Origin: Candidatus Poribacteria bacterium
GTDB taxonomy: Bacteria > Poribacteria > DTPJ01 > WJIO01
DNA length: 36,248 bases
NCBI GenBank assembly: GCA_014730235.1
Contig: WJIO01000116.1
Coordinates: forward strand, 1 to 36,248
Direction of reading: 5' to 3'
In this document: piece by piece, positions 17,341 to 33,019 of the stretch
Numbering within the stretch: the first letter of the stretch is position 1
Layout: each line of letters begins with the position of its first letter
The notes under the pieces: model-generated
What the model saw: the letters and a program-made list of their open reading frames with translations, nothing else
The model's database searches: none
What the model was told of the DNA's origin: nothing
Made by a program: the position numbers and the translations under genes

Positions 17341-17637
17341 ACCTGTTTCAATTTAGTAGGTTGAAATTTTTGGTTATTCCGGGTTCAGTGTGGCTATAAT
17401 TTGAAAATTCTCTCAGCTTGTCATTTCTGCGAAAGCAGGAATCCAGATGCATCAGCACAAATAATGGATTCCTGCTTTCGCAGGAATGACAAATGGAGGA
17501 TGTTTTTTCTTAATTGGACAATGTTTTTTACACTTCCACACTCAAACCGGATGAACCAAAATTTCTGATACAGACTAAAAACTTTATTTGTTATTCCGTT
17601 CTTCGCAATGACACAGGGATGTAAAATTTATGCTTGG
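17341..17637. repeat. CATTCCTGC-family composite repeat, long form
   Basis: ACCTGTTTCAATTTAGTAGGTTG...GGTTATTCCGGGTTCAGTGTGG...GTCATTTCTGCGAAAGCAGGAATCC...GGATTCCTGCTTTCGCAGGAATGAC...CCACACTCAAACCGG...GGGATGTAAAATTTATGCTTGG; reverse complement relationship to 2886-3199. Confidence 0.85.
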
Positions 17638-17738
17638 TATTCAGCTTACCACCGTTGACAATACTTACAAAAAGAGGTAAACTAGGTTCAGAAAATTATA
17701 TAAATTCCCATAATCATAATGTTAAGAGAGGTAAATAT

Positions 17739-18767
17739 ATGTATAAAGTTGGTATTATTGGTCTGGGGAGTATCGCAGCGCGTTATGCAAAGCCGGAAGA
17801 TCCATATCCCTACTGCCATACAGGAGGAATCCGTTACTGTGAGTCCACAGAACTGGCGGCTGTGGCTGATCTATCTCAGGAGCGAAGGGATGAGTTTAAA
17901 CAGATCTGGGGATCAGCTTTTCCGGAAGATTCGATAAACTACTACGAAAGCGACATCCAGATGTTGGATAACGAAGAATTGGATATAATAGCCGTATGTG
18001 TCCGGGGACCGCATCATTACAAGGTTATGATGGAAGTATTGAAATATGACATAAAGGCCATATTTCTGGAAAAACCGGCTGGTTGTTCTCTTAAAGAAGT
18101 AGACGAAATGACAAAAAAAGCCAAGGAAAAATGTATACCAATTGTAGTCAGCTATTCCCGTCATTGGGCACCACACCTGCTTAGGCTTCAGGAATTGGTT
18201 AAAGATGGATTGGTGGGAGAAGTCCAGTCTGTCATTGGTTACTGCGGTGGCGGGGTTCTATCTTTCGCCATTCATACCACAGACCTGATATGCCAGTTTG
18301 CCGGATATGATCCTGTTTCGGTAACGGGCTTTGTTCGGACATCCCAGGGGCAGGTTCCTGAAGGTTACGAACCTGAACCGCCTGTTATCGGTGCGACTAT
18401 AAGATACTCAAGCGGTGTTATAGGATACCACGTCGGTCAGCATGGAAAAATCGGGGGATTTTCTGTTGATGTTTTAGGAAGTGAGGGCACACTTAAAACT
18501 GGTATGTATACAGGAACAGTATTGCAAAAAGACGGTGAAATAGTTGCTAACAGTGCTCTGGATCTTCCCGAAAACGCCAGTGTTTTTAAAGTAGCTTACC
18601 AGCAGATAGCAGATTATTTGGATGGCGGTCCTTTACCCCACTGCTCAGAAAAAGATTATATGGCTGTCAACGAAATAGGATTTGCCATGATCGAAAGTAG
18701 TATTACCGGAAAAAATATTGATATTCCATGCCAGAACCGGGAAAGGTTGATATACGCAAACGGATAA
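17739..18767 (+). CDS. Gfo/Idh/MocA family oxidoreductase
   Basis: MYKVGIIGLGSIAARYA Rossmann start, AVCVRGPHHYKVMMEVLKYDIKAIFLEKPAGCSLKEVDEM; SD AGAGAGG precedes ATG 17739. The longer ORF from 17634 begins in the repeat. Confidence 0.9.
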   Translation: MYKVGIIGLGSIAARYAKPEDPYPYCHTGGIRYCESTELAAVADLSQERRDEFKQIWGSAFPEDSINYYESDIQMLDNEELDIIAVCVRGPHHYKVMMEVLKYDIKAIFLEKPAGCSLKEVDEMTKKAKEKCIPIVVSYSRHWAPHLLRLQELVKDGLVGEVQSVIGYCGGGVLSFAIHTTDLICQFAGYDPVSVTGFVRTSQGQVPEGYEPEPPVIGATIRYSSGVIGYHVGQHGKIGGFSVDVLGSEGTLKTGMYTGTVLQKDGEIVANSALDLPENASVFKVAYQQIADYLDGGPLPHCSEKDYMAVNEIGFAMIESSITGKNIDIPCQNRERLIYANG

Positions 18768-19793: not shown

Positions 19794-22700
19794 ATGAAAA
19801 TTTCACATGCCTTTATGTGTATAATTCCCATGCTAAGTCTGTTTATTATTACCCAATCATCCAATGGCAGCGTTTCAATCAAACAGGTAAGACAGGCCCT
19901 TCAGAACAAAAAATTCACCGAAGCCGCCGAGTTTGCCGAAGAATCCTTAAAAGTCTCTGACAAAGACAGGGGTACCTTGACATACTACAAGGCCCTGACC
20001 CTCTTTCATATTGAGAAATACAACGAATCTGCTAAAGCCTGTCAATCAGTCATTGAACAACACAAAGATTCCACCTGGTACAGAAAAGCCTTTTTCCTGA
20101 AAGCTCAATGCCATATACGTCTAAAAGAATTCAAAAAAGCCGAAGACATCTATGATTCGGAAGTCCGTAGACTCCTTTCAAAATCCAGGAAAGAGGATAT
20201 AGCCCGAATATACTTTCGTTTTGCCGAAGCTGTATCCCGTAAACCCGGCAATGATGAACTTGGCACGCCGCCGCCTGATTACCAGAAGGCCTACGAGTTA
20301 TACAGAAAGGTTCTGGAACTCGAGATCAATCGAGATTTAAAAGATGAGACCATGTTCCTTATGGGACGCATGATGCAGATGGTGGGTAATCACAACCAGG
20401 CCATTTCTGAATATCGAAGTTATCTTCATGAATTCGATCCATCGTGGTTAGGGCCTGTAAATTCAACTCGTCGGGAAAGGCAGGATTCAGCAAGCGTTAT
20501 TCCCGGTAAATATATACACCAGGTCAGGTATTATCTAGCCCAGAGTCAGATTGCTCTGGATCAGGTTCAATGGGCAAGGGTTAATCTGGAAGACCTGATA
20601 AAAATGCTTGAAACTATTTCAACCCAACTGCCTTTAGAATTAACCCCTGAAGCCCGTTTCCTCATGGTAAAAACATATCATTTCCCCGAACCCAGGAATG
20701 ATGATGAATTAAACAGGGGCATAAAGGCTGCACAGGAATTCATTGATGATTACCCAAATGATCCCCGCTCTGTAAAACTTGGCTATGATATAGGTTCGGC
20801 TTATAGCTCAATGGGTAAAAGCCACCAGGCTCTGGAAGCCTATAAAACCTTTCTGGAAACAGAATTTAACCAGGAAAACATGGGTGAAAAATGGGATAAT
20901 CTGGGTAAATCTCAATATATCAAACTGGATATTATAGGATTTAATCCCTCATCAGAAAACTTGTCCAATTATATCCAGAAACTCCGTATGTTAGCCACAT
21001 ACAGAAGGGCTGAAATTCTATTCTCCCAGAAAAATTACCCGGAAGCCATAAACGTCTGGAACAGCTATATAGCACAGTTCCCCAATGGCCCCCGGTGGAA
21101 TGATGCCCAGCAGGGAATTGTTAATGCCGAGTATCAGAAAGGCCTGGATCTGATAGCTGAGGAGAAATACGATGAAGCCGTCGCAGTATGGGACAACTTT
21201 CTTAAAGAGCATCCCCTGGACGGCAGATCTCGCCAGATAATGTTTATTTATGGCCTGATTCACTACTACAAAGCCAAAGAACAAAAAGATAAAGGCAATT
21301 CACAGAATTACAGGATGGCCATATCCGAATGGGAAAAGCTGGTTAATAAATATCCCAATACCGAGGAATCATCCCTGGCCCTCTTCCGAATTGGTCAGAT
21401 ATATGAAGAGAAAATCGGTGATCTGGAAAAAGCCCTGGAAGCTTACCGCAGGCTGACCTGGGGAGGCTGGCATGACGATGCTCAGAACCGCATAAAATCT
21501 ATGACAGAGAAAAACCTTAGACTGGTTACTGAGAGGGTTTTTCGGACAAATGAACCGGCAAAAGTAAAGTTAAACCTGCGGAATATAAAGAAAGTCACTG
21601 TAAGTGTTTACAAGGTTGACCTGGAAGCTTACTGGCGCAAGATGAACGGCATAACAGGCGTTGAAAATCTTGACATCGCCCTTATTTCCCCTGATGAAAC
21701 TTGGGAATACGAAGTTCCTGAATACGAGAAATACAAACCCTTTGAGCAGGAGATCGAAATTCCCTTTGATAAAGCCGGTGTGTGCGCTGTCCACATAAGC
21801 GAGGAAGACCTGGAAGCCACTACAATGGTCATAAGAAGCGACATTGATGCCATAATTAAGGCCTCTCGCCGGGAAATATTGATATTTACCCAGGATATGA
21901 TTAATAATCAACCTGTTCCCGACGCAAAGGTTCTGGTAAGCGATGGTAAAAGCATTATTAGCGAGGGTAAAACGGGCCCGGATGGTGTTTTTTATGAAAA
22001 AGCGAATGAGCTTAAAAATGCCTCTAATGTAACGGCTTTTATCATCAAAGACAACAGTGCCTCTTCTAATGTGTTGCAGTTGCAGGGGTTAGGATTAGCT
22101 CAGGGGTTGTCCCCAAGGGGATACATCTACACCCACAAACCCGTATACAGGCCCGGACAAAAGGTGTATGTAAAAGGTATCATCCGGGATGTCACCGACG
22201 GCAGTTACTCAGTATCTCCTGAAGCCCCTTATAAGGTTTCCATTATAGATCCCCGGGGTCGTCTTATATACTCGGAAGAACTGAAATTATCCAGATTCGG
22301 TACGTTTGACATGGAGATGCTTCTGGACGACAGCTCATCAGTGGGGGAATATCGCATTACAGCCCAGTCCACAAAAGAAAAAGATAAAATCTTTAACGGC
22401 GTTTTTTCAGTTGAACAGTATCAGCTTGAAAAAATACGCCTTGCCCTGGAATTTCCTCGGAAAGTCTATTTTCGAGGAGAAAAGGTGGAAGCCACCTTTT
22501 CAGCCAGCTATTACTATGGTCAGCCGCTAAAGGAACGCACCATCCGGTATGTATTGCCTGATGGTCGCAGTTACACAGGTAAGACAGACGCAGAGGGCAA
22601 ACTTAAGATCGAGTTTGACACAACCCCCATGCAGCCCGGAACTGTTCTGAATTTCAACGGCAGTATAGATGGCGAAAACGTGCAGGTATATGATACGGTG

Positions 22701-25700
22701 TTTCTGGCCCTTCTGGGCTTTAATATAAATGTAAAACCGTCTTCCAATGTGGTTATATCCGGCGAACCTTTTGAGGCAATGGTAACAACCACCAGGGCTG
22801 ATGGCGAACCCACAGGTAAAGACCTGACATTAAAGGTTTATCGCCAGACGGAACGCAAGGTTCACCCTATATTTTCCCAGATTCCCTGGATCGGTGACGA
22901 TTCAAAACCCGGCGGTGAGGTGGAGATAGAGGAACATAAGATCACAACAGATCAGAAGACCGGTAAAGGAAGAATAAAGCTATCCCTGGAACAGGGCGGC
23001 AGGTATATTCTTCGGGTAAAGGGTGTTGATAGATTTGACCAGCCGGTTTCCGGCGAGGGAAGTATACAGATTTCCGATGACAGCGACTCGGTCAAGTTGA
23101 GGGTTTTTTCCGACACATCAGAGCTTAAAGTAGGTGAAAAGCACATTGTGCGTATACACTCCCGGTTAAAGCCCACGTTGGCCCTGGTGACATTTGAGGG
23201 TGAGGGCATCATAAGCCATCAGGTATTGTCATTAAAAGAAGGCTGGAACGAAATGGAATTTGAAGCTGGAAATGAGCATTTCCCCAATTTCCATCTTTCA
23301 GTTGTTGCCATAGACGGACAGCATCTTAGAACTGCTGGAAAAGATTTCAATGTCTTAAGACGTATCATGGTGACTATGACACTTAATGATACATACAAGC
23401 CCGGTGAAGAGGCAGAGGTAACTGTAAAAACTCTGGATCAGATAGGCAATCCTGTAGAGGCTGAAATGGCAATGGTCCTGGTGGATGAAGCCCTTTACTC
23501 CATTTATGATGAGAATGTTCTACCTATAAATGACTTCTTCAATGAAGGCATACATCGGGATGCACCCATGCGGACAGTCTCTAGCTGCACATTCAGCTAC
23601 AAACCACCTACACGCAAAGTCTCCAAAGAGGTGCTGGAAGAACTGAGCAGGATGGAAATAGCAGAGAAATATGCCAGGGACAAAGCCGGTGTGTTAAAGG
23701 AATTAAATGGTACTATATCTTTGGGTATACCTGTTGAAAGTGCTGAACTGCGCGATAGACAAATGTTAGATGAAGAAGTAGTCGCTGAAGATGCTCTCAG
23801 TCTTAATAGAAAACGCTATGCTGGCAGATCATCCAAACAGCTCAGGGCACAGGAAACCCCTGCTGCTCTGATGAAGTCAGATATGGATTTTGCATACTTT
23901 GCTGATTCTCCTGCCTTAGCGCCATCGGGTGGAGGTGGTGTGGCATTTGGTGAGGAACTTACCGCTGGTTATGGTCTTGCACCGCAGATCAGGCGGGAAA
24001 TCGCAGGTCTTGGATACTGGAATCCGTCGGTGATTACCGACAAGAACGGTGAGGGCAAAGCTGTTATAACTATGCCGGAACGCACAACCCAGTGGAGATT
24101 AACAGCGCGCGGATGCACAGTTGAAACCCTTGTAGGACAGGTCTTTGAAAAAACAGTTATCCGCAAGGACTTCTTTGTGGATGCAAAAGTTCCGTCAATC
24201 GTTACAGAAGGGGATAAAATCAGGGTTCATACACGAATACACAACCTCACAGACTTTGCAGGAAAAGCACAGTTGAATCTGAAAATAGAAATTGACGGTG
24301 CTGGAACAAAAGGGATTCAAGAAACAGTAGACGTTTCAGGTAACGACACTGTGGAATTCGTGTTCCCGGAGGTGGAGATAACATCAGGTCGGGAAGTACA
24401 GTTGGAACTTACAGCAAAAGCCGGTGAGATGTCCGATGGAATATCCCGAAAGATACCTATCAGACCCTGGGGCATGGAATATTCCCACAGCAGTTCAGGC
24501 GTATCCAGTGGAAACGAAACGGTGTTCCTGGAACTGACGAAGGGCATAGAGTATATAAGCAACAGGCTTAACATAAGCATTGGCCCGGATGTAAACCGCA
24601 TGGTATTTGACATGGCCATGAATACCATAAGACCGATGGATATGTCTTTCTCCAGCCGTATACATCCTGTTCCCGGAGACGTGGGAAGCGATCTCCTGGC
24701 CCTGGCCTATGCGCTGGATTACCTGGAGGCAGTTGGCGGCGATTCGGAAGACAGCAGGCAACTGGTTTCACAGGCTCGCAGCCTGTCGGCTTTGCTGGTT
24801 ACAAGACAGAGAGACGACGGCGGCTGGTGGTGGTGTGAAAATGCAGAACAGAGCGACATTCACGTCAGTGCCAGAAACCTGTGGGCCCTGCTGCATGTGC
24901 AAAAACAGGGCATTGAGGTGCATTCTGAAGCCATCGAAAAAGGCATCGCATACATGAAAGAAGCCTTTGCGCGGCTGGAACAACAAAAAGACTACGACAA
25001 ATCGGTGGTACTGCACACCCTTTCTGCGGGTGGAGAAGCGGATTTTGCCTACGCCAACAGGCTTTACAGGAATCGCAACAATCTTAATCCCGCCGCTCTT
25101 GCCTATACGGCTTTGATCTTCGCCAATCTGGACAGGAAAGAGATCGGCGGTGAGATGCTGGAAGTATTGGCTTCAAAGAGCGATAAGAAAGCATCTAAAG
25201 GTTTATATGAAAACGTAGAAACGGCAGCGTTGGCAATGCTGGCCTGGGAGATGATACAACCTGAATCGCCTGTTGTAGACGAGATACTGAACTTTATCAT
25301 GTCTCAACGGACATTCTATGGTTATTCACCCTATAAGGCCAAGGGTCCTGTTGTTGCAGCCCTGGCGATGTACTACGGAAAATCTCAATATTCCAGCAGT
25401 GATTATAATCTTGAAATAAAAGTAAACGGTAAATCCATCAAAGTAATAGATGCAAAGGATAAACAGCCAGCCGTTATGGTCAAGGTGCCATTAGACATGG
25501 TAAAAGACGGACAGAATAAGGTGGAATTCCAGCTTAAAGGCAGCGGCAATTACGCTTATACAGCCACGTTAAGCGGCTTTTCACCGGAATTCAAAGATCC
25601 GGAATCGTGGAAAAACCCACATATCCGGTCGCGGAACTATTATCACGCGCCTATTGAATACAAAGGTCGCCAGATAGCATCCAGCACCACGCAGATCACC

Positions 25701-27797
25701 CAGCTTGAAGCCGGGGCCCAGACGTATGTATCTGTAGATATAAAAGACCAGTGGTCAGATCGTTACTTTGTGGTTCATGAATACTTACCGGCGGGAACAA
25801 CCCTGGTGAACGATTCTGTATCGGGCAATTTCCAGCATTATGAAGCGGGATATGGTATGATTACATTCTATTATCCCCCCGGCAGGCATGTCAGGGATTA
25901 CAGGTATCAACTGGTAAGCTACGCACCGGGCACATACAGGGCTATGCCTTCAGTGATAATGGACAGCCGCAGACCTGGACAAATGCGGCTGGGTGAAGCA
26001 AAGTCTCTGGAGGTACTGGCACCGGGAGAAAAGTCAAAGGACGAATACCAGATGAATGACTCGGAGCTTTACGAGCTGGGAAAAGCCTACTTTAATGATA
26101 ATAAATATGCCGATTCTCTGGAACTGCTTACAAAGCTGTATGACCGAAACAAGACCTATAATCAACGGGAGTCGGCCCGGATGCTTCTATGGATATGCAC
26201 AGAAGAAGAGCATTATAATGCTAAAAATGTAATCGAATACTTTGAGATACTCCGGGAGAGATTCCCTGAGCTTTATATACCCTTCGACAAAATACTGGTG
26301 GTTGGTCGCTCATATCGGGAGATAGGTGAATTTGAAAGGGCTTATCTAGTTTATAAGGCCACCATAGAGGCCAGCTTTGTCAACGATTCCAGAGTCAGCG
26401 CGGTGCTGGAAGACGAAGGGCAGTTCCTGAGTTCCATTGATTTCCAGGAAGATCTGTGGAGAGAATATCCTGATCTCCCCCAGGTTGTTTCGGCATACTT
26501 TGCACTTTCCCAGGCCTTATATGCCAAAGCACCGGAAGCCCGGGAATTGGCAAAAAATCAACGTCAGATACCAATACTCAAAGGGCAGTCAAAATCTGAT
26601 ATTAAGAAAATAACCAAACTTGATCTGCTGAAGGAAACTGCCTTGATGCTGGCTGAATTCCTGACTCTATATTCAACTGATCCCCTGGCTGATGATGCGA
26701 CTTTCTCAATGGCAAATGTCCTGCTGGATTTAGAAGACCATCAGCAGGTTGTTAAGCTGTGTAAAGGGGCACAATACCTTTATCCTGAAAGCGATTACCT
26801 GGCCAGTTTCCAGTATGTTGAGGCTCTGGGATTCTTCTCACAGCGAAAATATGACGAAGCTGTGGAAGCGGCTAAAGTCGTGGCTGATGGTAAAAGCGAC
26901 GACAGAGACCTGGCCCGATACATCCTGGGACAGATATACCATTCAAGAGGCAAGCCGGAAATGGCTATAGACTGGTATGAAAAAGTAAAAACCATATATC
27001 CCGATGCGGGAGAATCCATAAACTACTTCAGGAAGAAGCAGGTATCTGTGGATGAAGTAAAGGTATTTCAGCCAACAGAGGAAGCCAGCGTTAAGATTAA
27101 ATACAGGAATATACAGGAAACCTCATTGCAGGTATACAAGGTTGACCTGATGAAGCTTTATCTGCGGGAGAAAGACCTGAGTAAAATCCGTTCTATCCAA
27201 CTGGCAGGCATAGAGCCGGAGTTCAGCAAGACAATAAAACTGGGCGACGGCAAGGACTATGTGGACAAAGAGCATATAGTACCACTGGAAATAAAGGACG
27301 AAGGCGCTTACCTGGTTATCTGCCGGGGAGATGAGCTATTCACAAGTGGTCTGGTGCTTTTGACTCCGCTCAAGATGGAAGTCCAGGAGGATGCGGTCAG
27401 CGGCAGGATCAGGGTGAATGTCCGGGATGTAGTGGATGATCTATACAAAGAGGACATCCATGTAAAGGTTGTTGGCTCTGAGGATCAGATATTTAAATCC
27501 GGTGAAACAGATCTGAGGGGTATTTTCACAGCCGATGATATCCGGGGTAAGGCTACAGTGATCGCCCGTAGCGGAAAGGATCAATATGCCTTTTATCGGG
27601 GTGAGCAGTGGCTTGGAAAGCAAGTAACCCATGAGGGTGTTGTTCAGCAGGAAAGAATGCCAGAAAGACAGCAGCAGGCTGACTACAGGTCTAATATAGG
27701 AATAATGAACCAGGCCATCCAGGGAAAGAATTTCAGGGGATTTGATGAAATGCGCCGGGGTGGCAAAAAAGGTGTGCAGGTGCAGTATACACAGTGA
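19794..27797 (+). CDS. Giant alpha-2-macroglobulin-like protein with N- and C-terminal TPR modules
   Basis: Signal peptide MKISHAFMCIIPMLSLFIITQSSNGS; TPR-like repeats; MG2 region YTHKPVYRPGQKVYVKGIIRD; A2M region GYWNPSVITDKNGEGKAVITMPERTTQWRLTARGCT; TED-like helices; RBD-like VHEYLPAGTTLVNDSV; C-terminal TPR and repeated MG-like module. Confidence 0.9.
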   Translation: MKISHAFMCIIPMLSLFIITQSSNGSVSIKQVRQALQNKKFTEAAEFAEESLKVSDKDRGTLTYYKALTLFHIEKYNESAKACQSVIEQHKDSTWYRKAFFLKAQCHIRLKEFKKAEDIYDSEVRRLLSKSRKEDIARIYFRFAEAVSRKPGNDELGTPPPDYQKAYELYRKVLELEINRDLKDETMFLMGRMMQMVGNHNQAISEYRSYLHEFDPSWLGPVNSTRRERQDSASVIPGKYIHQVRYYLAQSQIALDQVQWARVNLEDLIKMLETISTQLPLELTPEARFLMVKTYHFPEPRNDDELNRGIKAAQEFIDDYPNDPRSVKLGYDIGSAYSSMGKSHQALEAYKTFLETEFNQENMGEKWDNLGKSQYIKLDIIGFNPSSENLSNYIQKLRMLATYRRAEILFSQKNYPEAINVWNSYIAQFPNGPRWNDAQQGIVNAEYQKGLDLIAEEKYDEAVAVWDNFLKEHPLDGRSRQIMFIYGLIHYYKAKEQKDKGNSQNYRMAISEWEKLVNKYPNTEESSLALFRIGQIYEEKIGDLEKALEAYRRLTWGGWHDDAQNRIKSMTEKNLRLVTERVFRTNEPAKVKLNLRNIKKVTVSVYKVDLEAYWRKMNGITGVENLDIALISPDETWEYEVPEYEKYKPFEQEIEIPFDKAGVCAVHISEEDLEATTMVIRSDIDAIIKASRREILIFTQDMINNQPVPDAKVLVSDGKSIISEGKTGPDGVFYEKANELKNASNVTAFIIKDNSASSNVLQLQGLGLAQGLSPRGYIYTHKPVYRPGQKVYVKGIIRDVTDGSYSVSPEAPYKVSIIDPRGRLIYSEELKLSRFGTFDMEMLLDDSSSVGEYRITAQSTKEKDKIFNGVFSVEQYQLEKIRLALEFPRKVYFRGEKVEATFSASYYYGQPLKERTIRYVLPDGRSYTGKTDAEGKLKIEFDTTPMQPGTVLNFNGSIDGENVQVYDTVFLALLGFNINVKPSSNVVISGEPFEAMVTTTRADGEPTGKDLTLKVYRQTERKVHPIFSQIPWIGDDSKPGGEVEIEEHKITTDQKTGKGRIKLSLEQGGRYILRVKGVDRFDQPVSGEGSIQISDDSDSVKLRVFSDTSELKVGEKHIVRIHSRLKPTLALVTFEGEGIISHQVLSLKEGWNEMEFEAGNEHFPNFHLSVVAIDGQHLRTAGKDFNVLRRIMVTMTLNDTYKPGEEAEVTVKTLDQIGNPVEAEMAMVLVDEALYSIYDENVLPINDFFNEGIHRDAPMRTVSSCTFSYKPPTRKVSKEVLEELSRMEIAEKYARDKAGVLKELNGTISLGIPVESAELRDRQMLDEEVVAEDALSLNRKRYAGRSSKQLRAQETPAALMKSDMDFAYFADSPALAPSGGGGVAFGEELTAGYGLAPQIRREIAGLGYWNPSVITDKNGEGKAVITMPERTTQWRLTARGCTVETLVGQVFEKTVIRKDFFVDAKVPSIVTEGDKIRVHTRIHNLTDFAGKAQLNLKIEIDGAGTKGIQETVDVSGNDTVEFVFPEVEITSGREVQLELTAKAGEMSDGISRKIPIRPWGMEYSHSSSGVSSGNETVFLELTKGIEYISNRLNISIGPDVNRMVFDMAMNTIRPMDMSFSSRIHPVPGDVGSDLLALAYALDYLEAVGGDSEDSRQLVSQARSLSALLVTRQRDDGGWWWCENAEQSDIHVSARNLWALLHVQKQGIEVHSEAIEKGIAYMKEAFARLEQQKDYDKSVVLHTLSAGGEADFAYANRLYRNRNNLNPAALAYTALIFANLDRKEIGGEMLEVLASKSDKKASKGLYENVETAALAMLAWEMIQPESPVVDEILNFIMSQRTFYGYSPYKAKGPVVAALAMYYGKSQYSSSDYNLEIKVNGKSIKVIDAKDKQPAVMVKVPLDMVKDGQNKVEFQLKGSGNYAYTATLSGFSPEFKDPESWKNPHIRSRNYYHAPIEYKGRQIASSTTQITQLEAGAQTYVSVDIKDQWSDRYFVVHEYLPAGTTLVNDSVSGNFQHYEAGYGMITFYYPPGRHVRDYRYQLVSYAPGTYRAMPSVIMDSRRPGQMRLGEAKSLEVLAPGEKSKDEYQMNDSELYELGKAYFNDNKYADSLELLTKLYDRNKTYNQRESARMLLWICTEEEHYNAKNVIEYFEILRERFPELYIPFDKILVVGRSYREIGEFERAYLVYKATIEASFVNDSRVSAVLEDEGQFLSSIDFQEDLWREYPDLPQVVSAYFALSQALYAKAPEARELAKNQRQIPILKGQSKSDIKKITKLDLLKETALMLAEFLTLYSTDPLADDATFSMANVLLDLEDHQQVVKLCKGAQYLYPESDYLASFQYVEALGFFSQRKYDEAVEAAKVVADGKSDDRDLARYILGQIYHSRGKPEMAIDWYEKVKTIYPDAGESINYFRKKQVSVDEVKVFQPTEEASVKIKYRNIQETSLQVYKVDLMKLYLREKDLSKIRSIQLAGIEPEFSKTIKLGDGKDYVDKEHIVPLEIKDEGAYLVICRGDELFTSGLVLLTPLKMEVQEDAVSGRIRVNVRDVVDDLYKEDIHVKVVGSEDQIFKSGETDLRGIFTADDIRGKATVIARSGKDQYAFYRGEQWLGKQVTHEGVVQQERMPERQQQADYRSNIGIMNQAIQGKNFRGFDEMRRGGKKGVQVQYTQ

Positions 27798-28802: not shown

Positions 28803-28891
28803 TAATCGTTAAAAAATGGATATAATTTGGTTGTCATTTACCATCATTATAAAGGTATTTTCTAAACACATTTTCCATTTTTTAACGATTA
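28803..28891. repeat. Inverted-repeat (MITE-like) element, TIR TAATCGTTAAAAAATGG
   Basis: TAATCGTTAAAAAATGG (28803-28819) and CCATTTTTTAACGATTA (28875-28891), perfect 17-bp arms; right flank resembles the right end of the 5290-5481 element. Confidence 0.75.
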
Positions 28892-29018: not shown

Positions 29019-29170
29019 ACTGATATTTCTAAAATTAACTAAAACCATATGTTGCAGTGCTTAAAGAGACACTAGCAAATGAAAATGCTATCAGGCTGTC
29101 ATTCCTGCTTTTGCAGGAATGACAGCATAAAGAAGTTTCTTATCTTTATCATACTAAATCCGGAAGAACC
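29019..29170. repeat. CATTCCTGC-family repeat ending just upstream of the sulfatase
   Basis: ACTGATATTTCTAAAATTAACTAAAACCATATGTTGCAGTGC...GTCATTCCTGCTTTTGCAGGAATGAC...ATACTAAATCCGGAAGAACC. Confidence 0.85.
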
Positions 29171-29230
29171 TTTAAACATAATAGACGAGAATTTGTAAAG
29201 CTAATAAGTATAGGAGGTATAATACCAGCA

Positions 29231-30535
29231 ATGTTGCAAAATCCAAAGGATAAACCTAATGTTGTATTGATACTTGTTGATGACCTGGGGTATGGCGACC
29301 TGGCCTGTTGTGGTTCGGATGATATGAGAACTCCGAACCTTGATAACATGGCAGCTTCTGGCGTCAGGTTCGAAAATTTCTACGCCAACTGTCCTGTATG
29401 TTCACCTACAAGGGCATCTGTAATGACCGGCAGGTATCCCGATATGGTAGGTGTACCGGGGGTAATAAGAACCCATGCCATGTCAAATTTCGGTCGCTTA
29501 TCCCAAAATGCGGTAATGCTGCCAGAGGCGTTGGATAAAGCCGGATATAATACGGCTATAATCGGTAAGTGGCATCTAGGTCTGGAACAACCCAATACTC
29601 CTAATATTCGGGGATTTGATCATTTCAACGGCTTTCTTGGTGATATGATGGATGATTATTACACTCACCGAAGGCATGATATAAATTACATGCGCCTGAA
29701 CGAAAAAGAGATCGATCCAGAAGGACACGCCACAGACCTTTTCTCAGATTGGGCTTGTGAATATATCAAAAAGCAGGCAGGTAAAGAAAATCCCTTCTTT
29801 ATGTATCTGGCCTATAATGCACCTCATACACCTATCCAGCCGCCTGAAGAATGGTTCGTCAAAGTCAGAGACCGGGAACCGGGAATTGATGAAAAACGGG
29901 CAAAACTGGTGGCTTTGATCGAACATATGGACTACGGTATAGGTAAAGTATTAAAAGCCCTGGAAGAATCCGGACAGAAGGAAAACACCCTTGTTATCTT
30001 TACATCGGATAACGGGGGTCAACTAAATGTAGGTGCTAATAACGGCCCGTTAAACGGCGGCAAGGGCCAGATGCTTGAGGGTGGTATAAAAGAACCTATG
30101 TTCGCAGTATGGCCCGGTCATATTGAAGCTGGTTCTCATAGAAAAAGGGTGGGATTGACAATGGACCTATTCCCCACTATATGCGACGCAGCCGGGGTTG
30201 ATTTCAGTCATGAAATTGACGGGTTTAGCATTTTGCCCGATATGCTTAATGCAGGGAAAGATGAATTTGATGAGCGCATGCTGTTCTGGGTGCGCCGCGA
30301 GGGAGGTATGCAGTTTGGGGGGCAATCTTTTTACGCCGTCAGATGCGGTCAATGGAAACTCCTGCAAAATACACCCTTTGAACCACCCAGGCTTTATAAT
30401 CTGAAAGAAGACCCAAAAGAGATTAATCCCATAGGAAAAGAACAGGATGAATATGGCATGCTTTTCAATGAGATGCAAAAACACGTCATAAGAACAGGAG
30501 CGATCCCATGGCAGGAGTATCCTGTGGATTTGTAA
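29231..30535 (+). CDS. Sulfatase (arylsulfatase family, Cys-type)
   Basis: NVVLILVDDLGYGDLACCG, formylglycine motif CSPTRASVMTGRYP, GKWHLGLEQPNTPNIRGFDHFNGFLG, FTSDNGGQ. Frame extends upstream without canonical start (HNRREFVKLISIGGIIPA-M). Confidence 0.93.
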   Translation: MLQNPKDKPNVVLILVDDLGYGDLACCGSDDMRTPNLDNMAASGVRFENFYANCPVCSPTRASVMTGRYPDMVGVPGVIRTHAMSNFGRLSQNAVMLPEALDKAGYNTAIIGKWHLGLEQPNTPNIRGFDHFNGFLGDMMDDYYTHRRHDINYMRLNEKEIDPEGHATDLFSDWACEYIKKQAGKENPFFMYLAYNAPHTPIQPPEEWFVKVRDREPGIDEKRAKLVALIEHMDYGIGKVLKALEESGQKENTLVIFTSDNGGQLNVGANNGPLNGGKGQMLEGGIKEPMFAVWPGHIEAGSHRKRVGLTMDLFPTICDAAGVDFSHEIDGFSILPDMLNAGKDEFDERMLFWVRREGGMQFGGQSFYAVRCGQWKLLQNTPFEPPRLYNLKEDPKEINPIGKEQDEYGMLFNEMQKHVIRTGAIPWQEYPVDL

Positions 30536-30550
30536 AAACGGAGCACAGAC

Positions 30551-31972
30551 ATGTTTACCATAATACTGGAACAAGAACAGATAGAGCGCATCCACGAAAA
30601 ATCCCTGGAAATACTCCAGCATGTAGGCGTGCAAATTCCCCATGAAGAAATGCTGAATATCTTCCATGATGCCGGCACAGATGTGGATTACAAAAAACAG
30701 ATTGTCAAAATTCCACCGGAGTTGGTGCAAAGGTCAATAGAACAGGCAGGTAAAAAGTTTACTATATACGGCCGGGACAAATCAAAATGTGCCCGGTTTG
30801 GTTACTCAACAAGAAATTATAACAGCATCGCCGGAGAAGCACTATGGATAGATGAACCATGCCAGAAACGCAGATATGCCACCCTGGAAGACGTGGCCAC
30901 TGCATCTCGATTTGCTGATGCCCTTGAGAATATAAACGTGGTAGGGGCCATGTCCGACCCCCATGAACTGCCTGTTGACATGCGCTGTGTCAGCGTTATG
31001 GTTACCATGATTAAAAATACCACAAAGCCTATACATTTCTGGTATCATGACCGGGCATCGGCCCGATACCTGAACGAAATTATGATCGTCCTCAGAGGAA
31101 GCGCAAAGGCTGCATCTGAATTTCCCATCTGCTATCCGTTCCTTGAACCTATAAGCCCTCTAAGGTTTTCATTTAATGGTGTGGATTTGCTCTTTGAAAC
31201 AGCAAGGTTAAATCTACCTGTGCCAATTGGCCCTATGGCCCAGATGGGTTTATCCGCCCCGGCTACCATCGCCGGTACAATGGCCCAGGAAAATGCTGAA
31301 ATATTAGCTGGAGTCTGCATAACACAGCTTATACGACCCGGTATGCCTGTATGTTACGGGGGAATATGTCATGCCTTTGACATGGGAACAACCCAGTTGA
31401 TATTCTCCGGCCCTGAGCAGGCCATATTTGGCGTTTGTATGACCCAGATAGGAAAATACTATGGTTTACCTGTTTATATCAATGTAGGCCTTACAGATTC
31501 AAAGAGACCAGATGCTCAAGCAGGTCTGGAAGCTGGCATAACTTTAATGGCAGGAGTAGCCGCAGGGGCGGATATATTTGGTCACATGGGCATCAGCGGT
31601 GTGGATCAGGCTTCATCCCTGGATATGTTGGTCTTGCAGGACGAGGTAATCAGTTTCGTAGAAAGCGTTATGCGTCAGGTTGACTTCAGTGATGATAAAT
31701 TTGGTCTTGATGTTATAGAATCAGTAGAACCCGGTGGATCTTTTATTGATAAAGACCACACCCTGGAACACTTTCGAAAAGAATTGTGGTTCCCGAAAAT
31801 TCTGGACAGGAATTATTACGATTCATGGCTTGATAACGGTGCTTTTGATACAGAGAAACGCTGCCAAAGGGTCAAGGAAAAAATTCTCTCAAAACATAAT
31901 CCAGAGCCAATTTCTCCTGATCTGGAAAAAGAACTGGACAAAATTGTAAAAAAATTACCTGTCTCAAATTAG
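30551..31972 (+). CDS. Trimethylamine methyltransferase (MttB) family protein, non-pyrrolysine type
   Basis: EKSLEILQHVGVQIPHEEML, RYATLEDVATASRFADALENINVVGAMSDPHELP, GPMAQMGLSAPATIAGTMAQENAEILAGVCITQLIRPGMPVCYGG, FGHMGISGVDQASSLDMLVLQDE; uninterrupted frame. 15 nt after the sulfatase. Confidence 0.92.
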   Translation: MFTIILEQEQIERIHEKSLEILQHVGVQIPHEEMLNIFHDAGTDVDYKKQIVKIPPELVQRSIEQAGKKFTIYGRDKSKCARFGYSTRNYNSIAGEALWIDEPCQKRRYATLEDVATASRFADALENINVVGAMSDPHELPVDMRCVSVMVTMIKNTTKPIHFWYHDRASARYLNEIMIVLRGSAKAASEFPICYPFLEPISPLRFSFNGVDLLFETARLNLPVPIGPMAQMGLSAPATIAGTMAQENAEILAGVCITQLIRPGMPVCYGGICHAFDMGTTQLIFSGPEQAIFGVCMTQIGKYYGLPVYINVGLTDSKRPDAQAGLEAGITLMAGVAAGADIFGHMGISGVDQASSLDMLVLQDEVISFVESVMRQVDFSDDKFGLDVIESVEPGGSFIDKDHTLEHFRKELWFPKILDRNYYDSWLDNGAFDTEKRCQRVKEKILSKHNPEPISPDLEKELDKIVKKLPVSN

Positions 31973-32166: not shown

Positions 32167-32290
32167 TAAAAAATTCTAGTTGACGAAATTTCCATTTATG
32201 GTATCATTAATACTTGAGGTTTTTATATGCGGTGGCAAAAATAAAAAAAACAGGAAAATTCTATCAACTTTTTATTTTGAGGTGCTGCAT

Positions 32291-33019
32291 ATGAAAGCAA
32301 GTGTTTTTTTATTAGCCGCTATATTGTTTATCTCAATATGTATATGTGGTTGTAGTTCTAAAAGTAGTGAAATAGAATATAACTCAGTCCAGAAAATAAG
32401 TGTTATCGTCTTTGCAGACAAGATGCAGATAGCTGAAAAAGTGGCTATGTATCTTGAAGATGAACCGGGATTTAATATTTTTCCCACTGACGATATTCAG
32501 GATCTCGATTCCATAAGACTTCGTGAGACGGATGTTGTAATCCTTGTTCCTCTTAATATACCAAGTATACCCAATTATATAGCCTTAAGCCTGGAAGATT
32601 TTGTTGATAAAGGAGGCGGCGTAATAGGTATAAATAATATTGTATTTAACGGGAGCAAACTGGGTAAAATCTTTGGTGAAAGAGGTTATGTATTCCCTGA
32701 AGATGCCCGTCACCAAAAACTACATATAAAACTTAACAAGGAATATTCATCACCTATTAGTGATGGTTTACCTGTAAAGTTTGCTCTGGTAGGGGAAAAA
32801 CCTATAGGTGTCAACTGTGAATCGAAAGTCCAGAGAATTGTTGATATGTTTTACGAAACATCCGACGGTAGTATTAAAAGTTATTGCGCTGCCTGGTCAT
32901 ATAACTATGGGGATGGCAAGACCTTTGCCTTCGTGCCCGGTATTACAGAGGAAACCCGGTATAACCCATATGTGCTCAGGATGATAGCAAACGCGACGTT
33001 CTGGATGACGAAGAATTAA
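32291..33019 (+). CDS. Lipoprotein with ThuA-like/class I glutamine amidotransferase-like domain
   Basis: Lipoprotein signal MKASVFLLAAILFISICICGCSSKSS; YCAAWSYNYGDGKTFAFVPGITEETRYNPYVLRMIANATFWMTKN resembles a ThuA C-terminus; SD GAGGTG before ATG 32291. Confidence 0.6.
   Translation: MKASVFLLAAILFISICICGCSSKSSEIEYNSVQKISVIVFADKMQIAEKVAMYLEDEPGFNIFPTDDIQDLDSIRLRETDVVILVPLNIPSIPNYIALSLEDFVDKGGGVIGINNIVFNGSKLGKIFGERGYVFPEDARHQKLHIKLNKEYSSPISDGLPVKFALVGEKPIGVNCESKVQRIVDMFYETSDGSIKSYCAAWSYNYGDGKTFAFVPGITEETRYNPYVLRMIANATFWMTKN

Follow-up and report, generated by a model that had tools for sequence, protein, structure and literature searches.

The window, by which we mean the whole 36,248-nt stretch of poribacterial DNA analysed here, contains a sulfatase gene that is preceded, in the same reading frame, by a Tat signal without a start codon, directly at the boundary of a repeat. 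This arrangement raises the question of whether the sulfatase is still exported, at which codon its translation starts and what part the repeat may have played in the loss of the start codon. The features that bear on this question are collected in Table 1.

Table 1. Features at and upstream of the start of the sulfatase gene (window coordinates).
Feature	Position	Strand	Remarks
Left half of MITE family 2 (ACTGATATTTCTAAAATTAACTAAAACCA...)	29019..29111 (end approximate)	+	Core pattern and flank comparison
28-nt palindromic core common to both MITE families, junction inside	29097..29124	.	Limits of exact identity
Right half of MITE family 1, left half absent	29112..29170	+	Comparison with intact copies
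In-frame stop TGA bounding the extended frame	29120..29122	+	Inside the repeat
Presumed right copy of the 8-bp target duplication, TTTAAACA	29171..29178	+	Position inferred from the family-1 end
Tat signal relic NRREFVKLISIGGIIPA, without start codon, probably untranslated	29180..29230	+	
Shine-Dalgarno sequence AGGAGG (AGGAGGTA)	29212..29217	+	-11.2 kcal/mol
Sulfatase, 434 aa, C-S-P-T-R formylglycine motif intact	29231..30535	+	Probable real start

The sulfatase frame itself is unbroken over 1305 bp. In a profile search, the product of the frame starting at ATG 29231 matched the sulfatase domain PF00884 with 215 bits (curated cut-off, 25), and the maturation motif C/S-x-P-x-R is present as CSPTR, which is conserved across the aligned homologues. 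Over the whole domain, the protein is 70% identical to that of L029, another poribacterial locus. A Poribacteria-like source is also what its nearest named homologues and the relatives at phylum level suggest. Conceivably, the gene could be a decaying and unexpressed pseudogene that lost its promoter, Shine-Dalgarno (SD) sequence and start to the repeat; a promoter scan of the repeat and the region upstream of the sulfatase gave five sites where 4.3 were expected, which is chance level and agrees with that possibility. The intact frame and catalytic motif, the identity to L029 and the strong SD sequence in front of ATG 29231 argue against it, and we regard a pseudogene as improbable.

Behind the TGA stop codon in the repeat, the frame is open from position 29123 up to ATG 29231. 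The codons following the stop are CAG CAT AAA GAA GTT TCT TAT CTT TAT CAT ACT AAA TCC, after which the frame continues with GGA AGA ACC TTT AAA CAT AAT AGA CGA GAA TTT GTA AAG. It thus reads K-H-N-R-R-E-F-V-K, and the residues N-R-R-E-F-V-K-L-I-S-I-G-G-I-I-P-A immediately precede the Met encoded by ATG 29231. An earlier note on this DNA had reported that a start codon is missing here, and indeed not a single ATG, GTG or TTG is present in frame between this TGA and ATG 29231. The codons CTG, ATT, ATA and ATC are likewise absent in frame upstream of the RR motif.

The same note had suggested that translation may start non-canonically or within the repeat. This was not supported, as there is no near-cognate codon before the RR motif and the same MITE end, where it lies at another Tat sulfatase of this genome (L113, see below), leaves an ordinary ATG. 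An exported form that is still made in this way would be in line with the frame being open from 29123 and with the perfect RR motif. Besides the missing codons, however, the SD energy at 29178 is only -3.5, the signal is shortened and is not recognised by TIGR01409, and a stable hairpin is predicted just upstream, at about 29096-29125 (no known RNA family was found in the repeat). Continued export by this route is therefore highly improbable.

The upstream segment had also been described as a textbook Tat signal, which goes too far. The RR motif (first Arg codon at 29183) is perfect, but the segment as a whole is short, has no A-x-A site and did not match TIGR01409, either as a fragment or with a Met added in front. 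TIGR01409 matched eight of nine other homologous or paralogous signals tested; the one that it missed, L114, is from the same genome, and hence this test by itself is not decisive. The genome encodes the Tat translocase component TatC (214 bits), and roughly a dozen further Tat-like ORFs were found in it (L113, L114, L203, L205-L212 and L214). All of these have an in-frame ATG or TTG before the RR motif, and only that of the window has none. A translated signal with its start codon ahead of the RR motif, which we took as one mark of Tat export, was not found in the window.

Homologues were compared for an MNRREF-type start, as proposed in the earlier note. An RR Tat signal of the pattern M-x(0-8)-[TN]RR-[DE]-F-L-K, in which a start codon precedes the RR motif, was found in 43 of the 79 homologous loci L030-L108, and these 43 are mostly planctomycete. 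Tat-exported sulfatases of planctomycetes and Phycisphaerae such as L033, L041 and L044 (about 62% identity) belong to the same subfamily over their full length, and have C-S-P-T-R and RR-[DE]-F-[LV]-K in common with the window. Their start lies shortly before the RR motif and the stretch from RR to the PN motif is 27-37 residues long, whereas the window has no start, a stretch of 24 residues and no A-x-A site. The poribacterial sulfatases L029/L010 (70% identity) and L062, cytosolic by prediction, are sisters of the window gene; L029 and L062 are signal-less, and they start just ahead of the PN motif and mature domain, close to the position that corresponds to ATG 29231.

In a tree of 94 rows, from which the N-terminus was left out, the window gene, L029 and L062 form one clade (SH-aLRT 97) that is nested in a Tat-bearing clade. 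Because the window gene and its signal-less sisters sit inside the Tat-bearing clade, the Tat signal is, judged by sequence, ancestral and was lost in this group, with the window retaining a remnant. The NRREFVK segment is still perfect in this relic, and the predicted loss of export must therefore be recent. L029/L010 and L062 have no detectable Tat remnant upstream and no repeat was noted at their starts, unlike the window; at the DNA level, the relic showed no homology to the region upstream of L029 (local score 6, a value that 90% of shuffles reached). The sisters L029 and L062 would thus have lost their signal separately from, or earlier than, the window gene, which counts against the explanation that we favour below.

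The AGGAGG sequence, the presence of which had been noted before, is located 13 nt before ATG 29231. Among the starts examined, this ATG has the strongest SD sequence, and an SD of -8 or better is found for just 2.8% of the 718 plus-strand ATGs in the window. The gap of 13 nt is longer than usual and counts against this start.

About 50 sulfatase-domain matches are present in the genome (G000), nearly all of them signal-less and starting right at the mature domain, which makes the set as a whole strikingly cytosolic. Of the approximately 45 own sulfatases that were examined, most have their start just ahead of the PN motif or the mature domain and are cytosolic by prediction. An RR motif is present in just three of them, the window gene, L113 and L114. 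In both L113 and L114, an ATG behind a strong SD sequence (-10.3 and -8.6) lies in frame between the signal and the mature domain, and their 70% orthologues in the related genomes G001 and G058 (L266; L264 and L276) are signal-less and start at those internal Mets. This internal-start pattern is based on three RR sulfatases, a small sample; outside this genome, a strong internal SD-ATG was found in only 3 of 43 Tat homologues. As a general trait of the Tat proteins of the genome it was rejected, since none of the non-sulfatase Tat ORFs reached -8 or better, L209 coming closest with -7.9. The strong SD sequence, the internal starts of L113 and L114 and the mostly signal-less own sulfatases make a predicted cytosolic product translated from 29231 the natural reading. 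The suggestion that the window gene yields such a product is thereby supported, also by its two signal-less sister genes.

What had been taken for a single repeat turned out to consist of parts of two MITE families that are joined. Intact copies in the same genome define family 1 as a 120-bp element with terminal repeats GGTTCTTCCGGG/CCCGGAAGAACC that generates an 8-bp target duplication; direct repeats of 7-8 bp flank 29 of the 60 intact copies sampled (24 of exactly 8 bp), against 1.1 obtained by flank shuffling. Family 2 starts with ACTGATATTTCTAAAATTAACTAAAACCA and ends with GGTTTTAGAGATTTTTTAGAATTCTCAG, and its core pattern is present in 58 copies in the genome and in none in the reversed control. 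Both families have the palindrome GTCATTCCTGC...GCAGGAATGAC in their middle. In the window, exact identity to family-2 copies extends to 29124 and exact identity to family-1 copies begins at 29097, which places the join inside the common 28-nt core. In agreement with the earlier observation that the repeat stops close to the RR motif, the last base of the conserved end CCGGAAGAACC is 29170, which leaves 12 nt up to the first Arg codon at 29183.

As a member of family 1, the window copy has its right end only, instead of both ends and a target duplication. A left copy of TTTAAACA was not found beside the repeat; seven of its eight bases match at 28861, probably by chance. Insertion of a whole MITE as the simple explanation was therefore rejected: neither the left end of family 1 nor a left target copy is present, and what stands on the left comes from family 2. 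In its A+T-rich target duplications of 8 bp and its GGYTCTTCCGG termini, family 1 resembles ISL3-family elements. Unlike ISL3-type MITEs, the window copy comprises half of such an element, joined to a second family. Three fragmentary ISL3 transposases are encoded in the genome, one of which has a similar end at a distance of about 350 nt; an intact ISL3 element with family-1 termini was not found in it.

Chimeras of this kind make up 8 of the 29 family-2 copies sampled (window 29019-29170, L173, L174, L189, L191, L192, L194 and L199). Because several of the others have their own cores and flanks, the chimeric form probably arose in the organism and not during assembly. The rival of this conclusion is a sequence or assembly error, in which either the start codon lacks a base or the MITEs were wrongly joined at the common core; the true gene would then keep its start and Tat signal. 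The genome is a MAG of 451 contigs with 4.8% contamination, and short-read assemblers can misjoin repeat boundaries with a 28-nt common core. Moreover, CAT-AAT before the RR motif differs by a single base from a sequence with ATG directly in front of N-R-R, and a base lost at 29178-29180 would explain the missing ATG with no role for the repeat. Against this stand the seven other sampled chimeras, several with their own cores and flanks, which point to real recombination. In addition, a final assembly k-mer would usually be longer than 28 nt, and a single error leaves the shortened signal without A-x-A unexplained. We consider an error of this type unlikely, although less so than a pseudogene.

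The explanation that we favour, and hold to be probable, is that the window encodes a working C-type sulfatase, a cytosolic protein of 434 aa translated from ATG 29231, behind an untranslated Tat relic that lost its start when MITEs recombined. The ancestral gene would have had a Tat signal with a start codon and encoded an exported sulfatase. A family-2 MITE would have been present upstream, and a family-1 MITE would have inserted at or near the start of the sulfatase gene. The two neighbouring MITEs would then most likely have recombined through their common palindromic core, deleting the stretch between them and, with it, the start codon and the native upstream region. This would have left the NRREFVK segment in the 5' untranslated region, with translation from ATG 29231.

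The missing start, the chimeric repeat, the intact domain, the strong SD sequence, the nested signal-less sisters and the shortened signal are read directly from the DNA; the deletion step, the cytosolic location and the continued expression and function are what we infer from them. Because the chimera lacks the left half of the MITE that abuts the gene, deletion by MITE recombination fits better than one insertion. The earlier proposal that the repeat removed the ATG is thus supported in so far as the start is missing and the repeat ends at the break, and an insertion alone probably does not account for everything. Possibly, the start codon was instead lost to an independent point mutation or to a base dropped at this site.

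L113 (G000:C399, about 25661-25740, minus strand) shows that family-1 MITEs do land at starts of Tat sulfatases. A family-1 MITE is inserted exactly at its upstream start codon, the first two letters of which, AT, come from the 8-bp target duplication AGATTTAT. This upstream start has a weak SD sequence (-3.5) and the internal start is still strong, which illustrates how export could weaken while the enzyme is retained. The idea that MITE ends commonly create start sites was rejected: CCGGAAGAACC is followed by an ATG within 3-10 nt at 28 places, and a long ORF follows only at L113. Somewhat more speculatively, the few Tat-type sulfatases of this lineage may have two starts, a weak upstream one for an exported form and a strong internal SD-ATG for a cytosolic form. 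The window gene would then have been pushed to the cytosolic form alone by the MITE event, with a second MITE already on the upstream start of L113. We put this forward tentatively, as a possibility that is rather doubtful, if less so than an assembly error.

Signal-peptide loss by a shift of the gene start has been surveyed in orthologues across Enterobacterales, where indel-type losses were almost seven times as frequent as losses by mutation (PMC5952966). In that survey, groups with Tat predictions were discarded and ISEScan found no transposable element near the N-termini (PMC5952966). As in those cases, an N-terminal signal was lost in the window and the mature domain was kept; unlike in those cases, a MITE junction is present at the break. 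The window is therefore a candidate for the event that the survey sought, and a concrete one for a mobile-element event that would shift an enzyme from outside to inside the cell in one step. Otherwise, this is an ordinary case of gene decay and relocation in one uncultured genome, for which no new mechanism is needed. For gene callers and signal predictors it is a caution that an intact-looking in-frame Tat motif may go untranslated.

A gene of the trimethylamine-methyltransferase (MTTB) family, at window positions 30551-31972, begins 16 nt past the sulfatase stop codon, and the two genes probably form one operon. Speculatively, the pairing of a cytosolic sulfatase with a methylamine-type enzyme could hint at a small intracellular substrate. 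Elsewhere in the window, the listed TTG starts of the ORFs at 17634-18767 and 32180-33019 are located in or just past repeat-derived sequence; their likelier starts are ATGs near 17740 and 32291, each of which follows an SD-like purine run. Finally, the ORF at 19794-27797 encodes 2667 aa; in a scan of the first 1635 aa, TPR repeats precede alpha-2-macroglobulin domains on the same chain.
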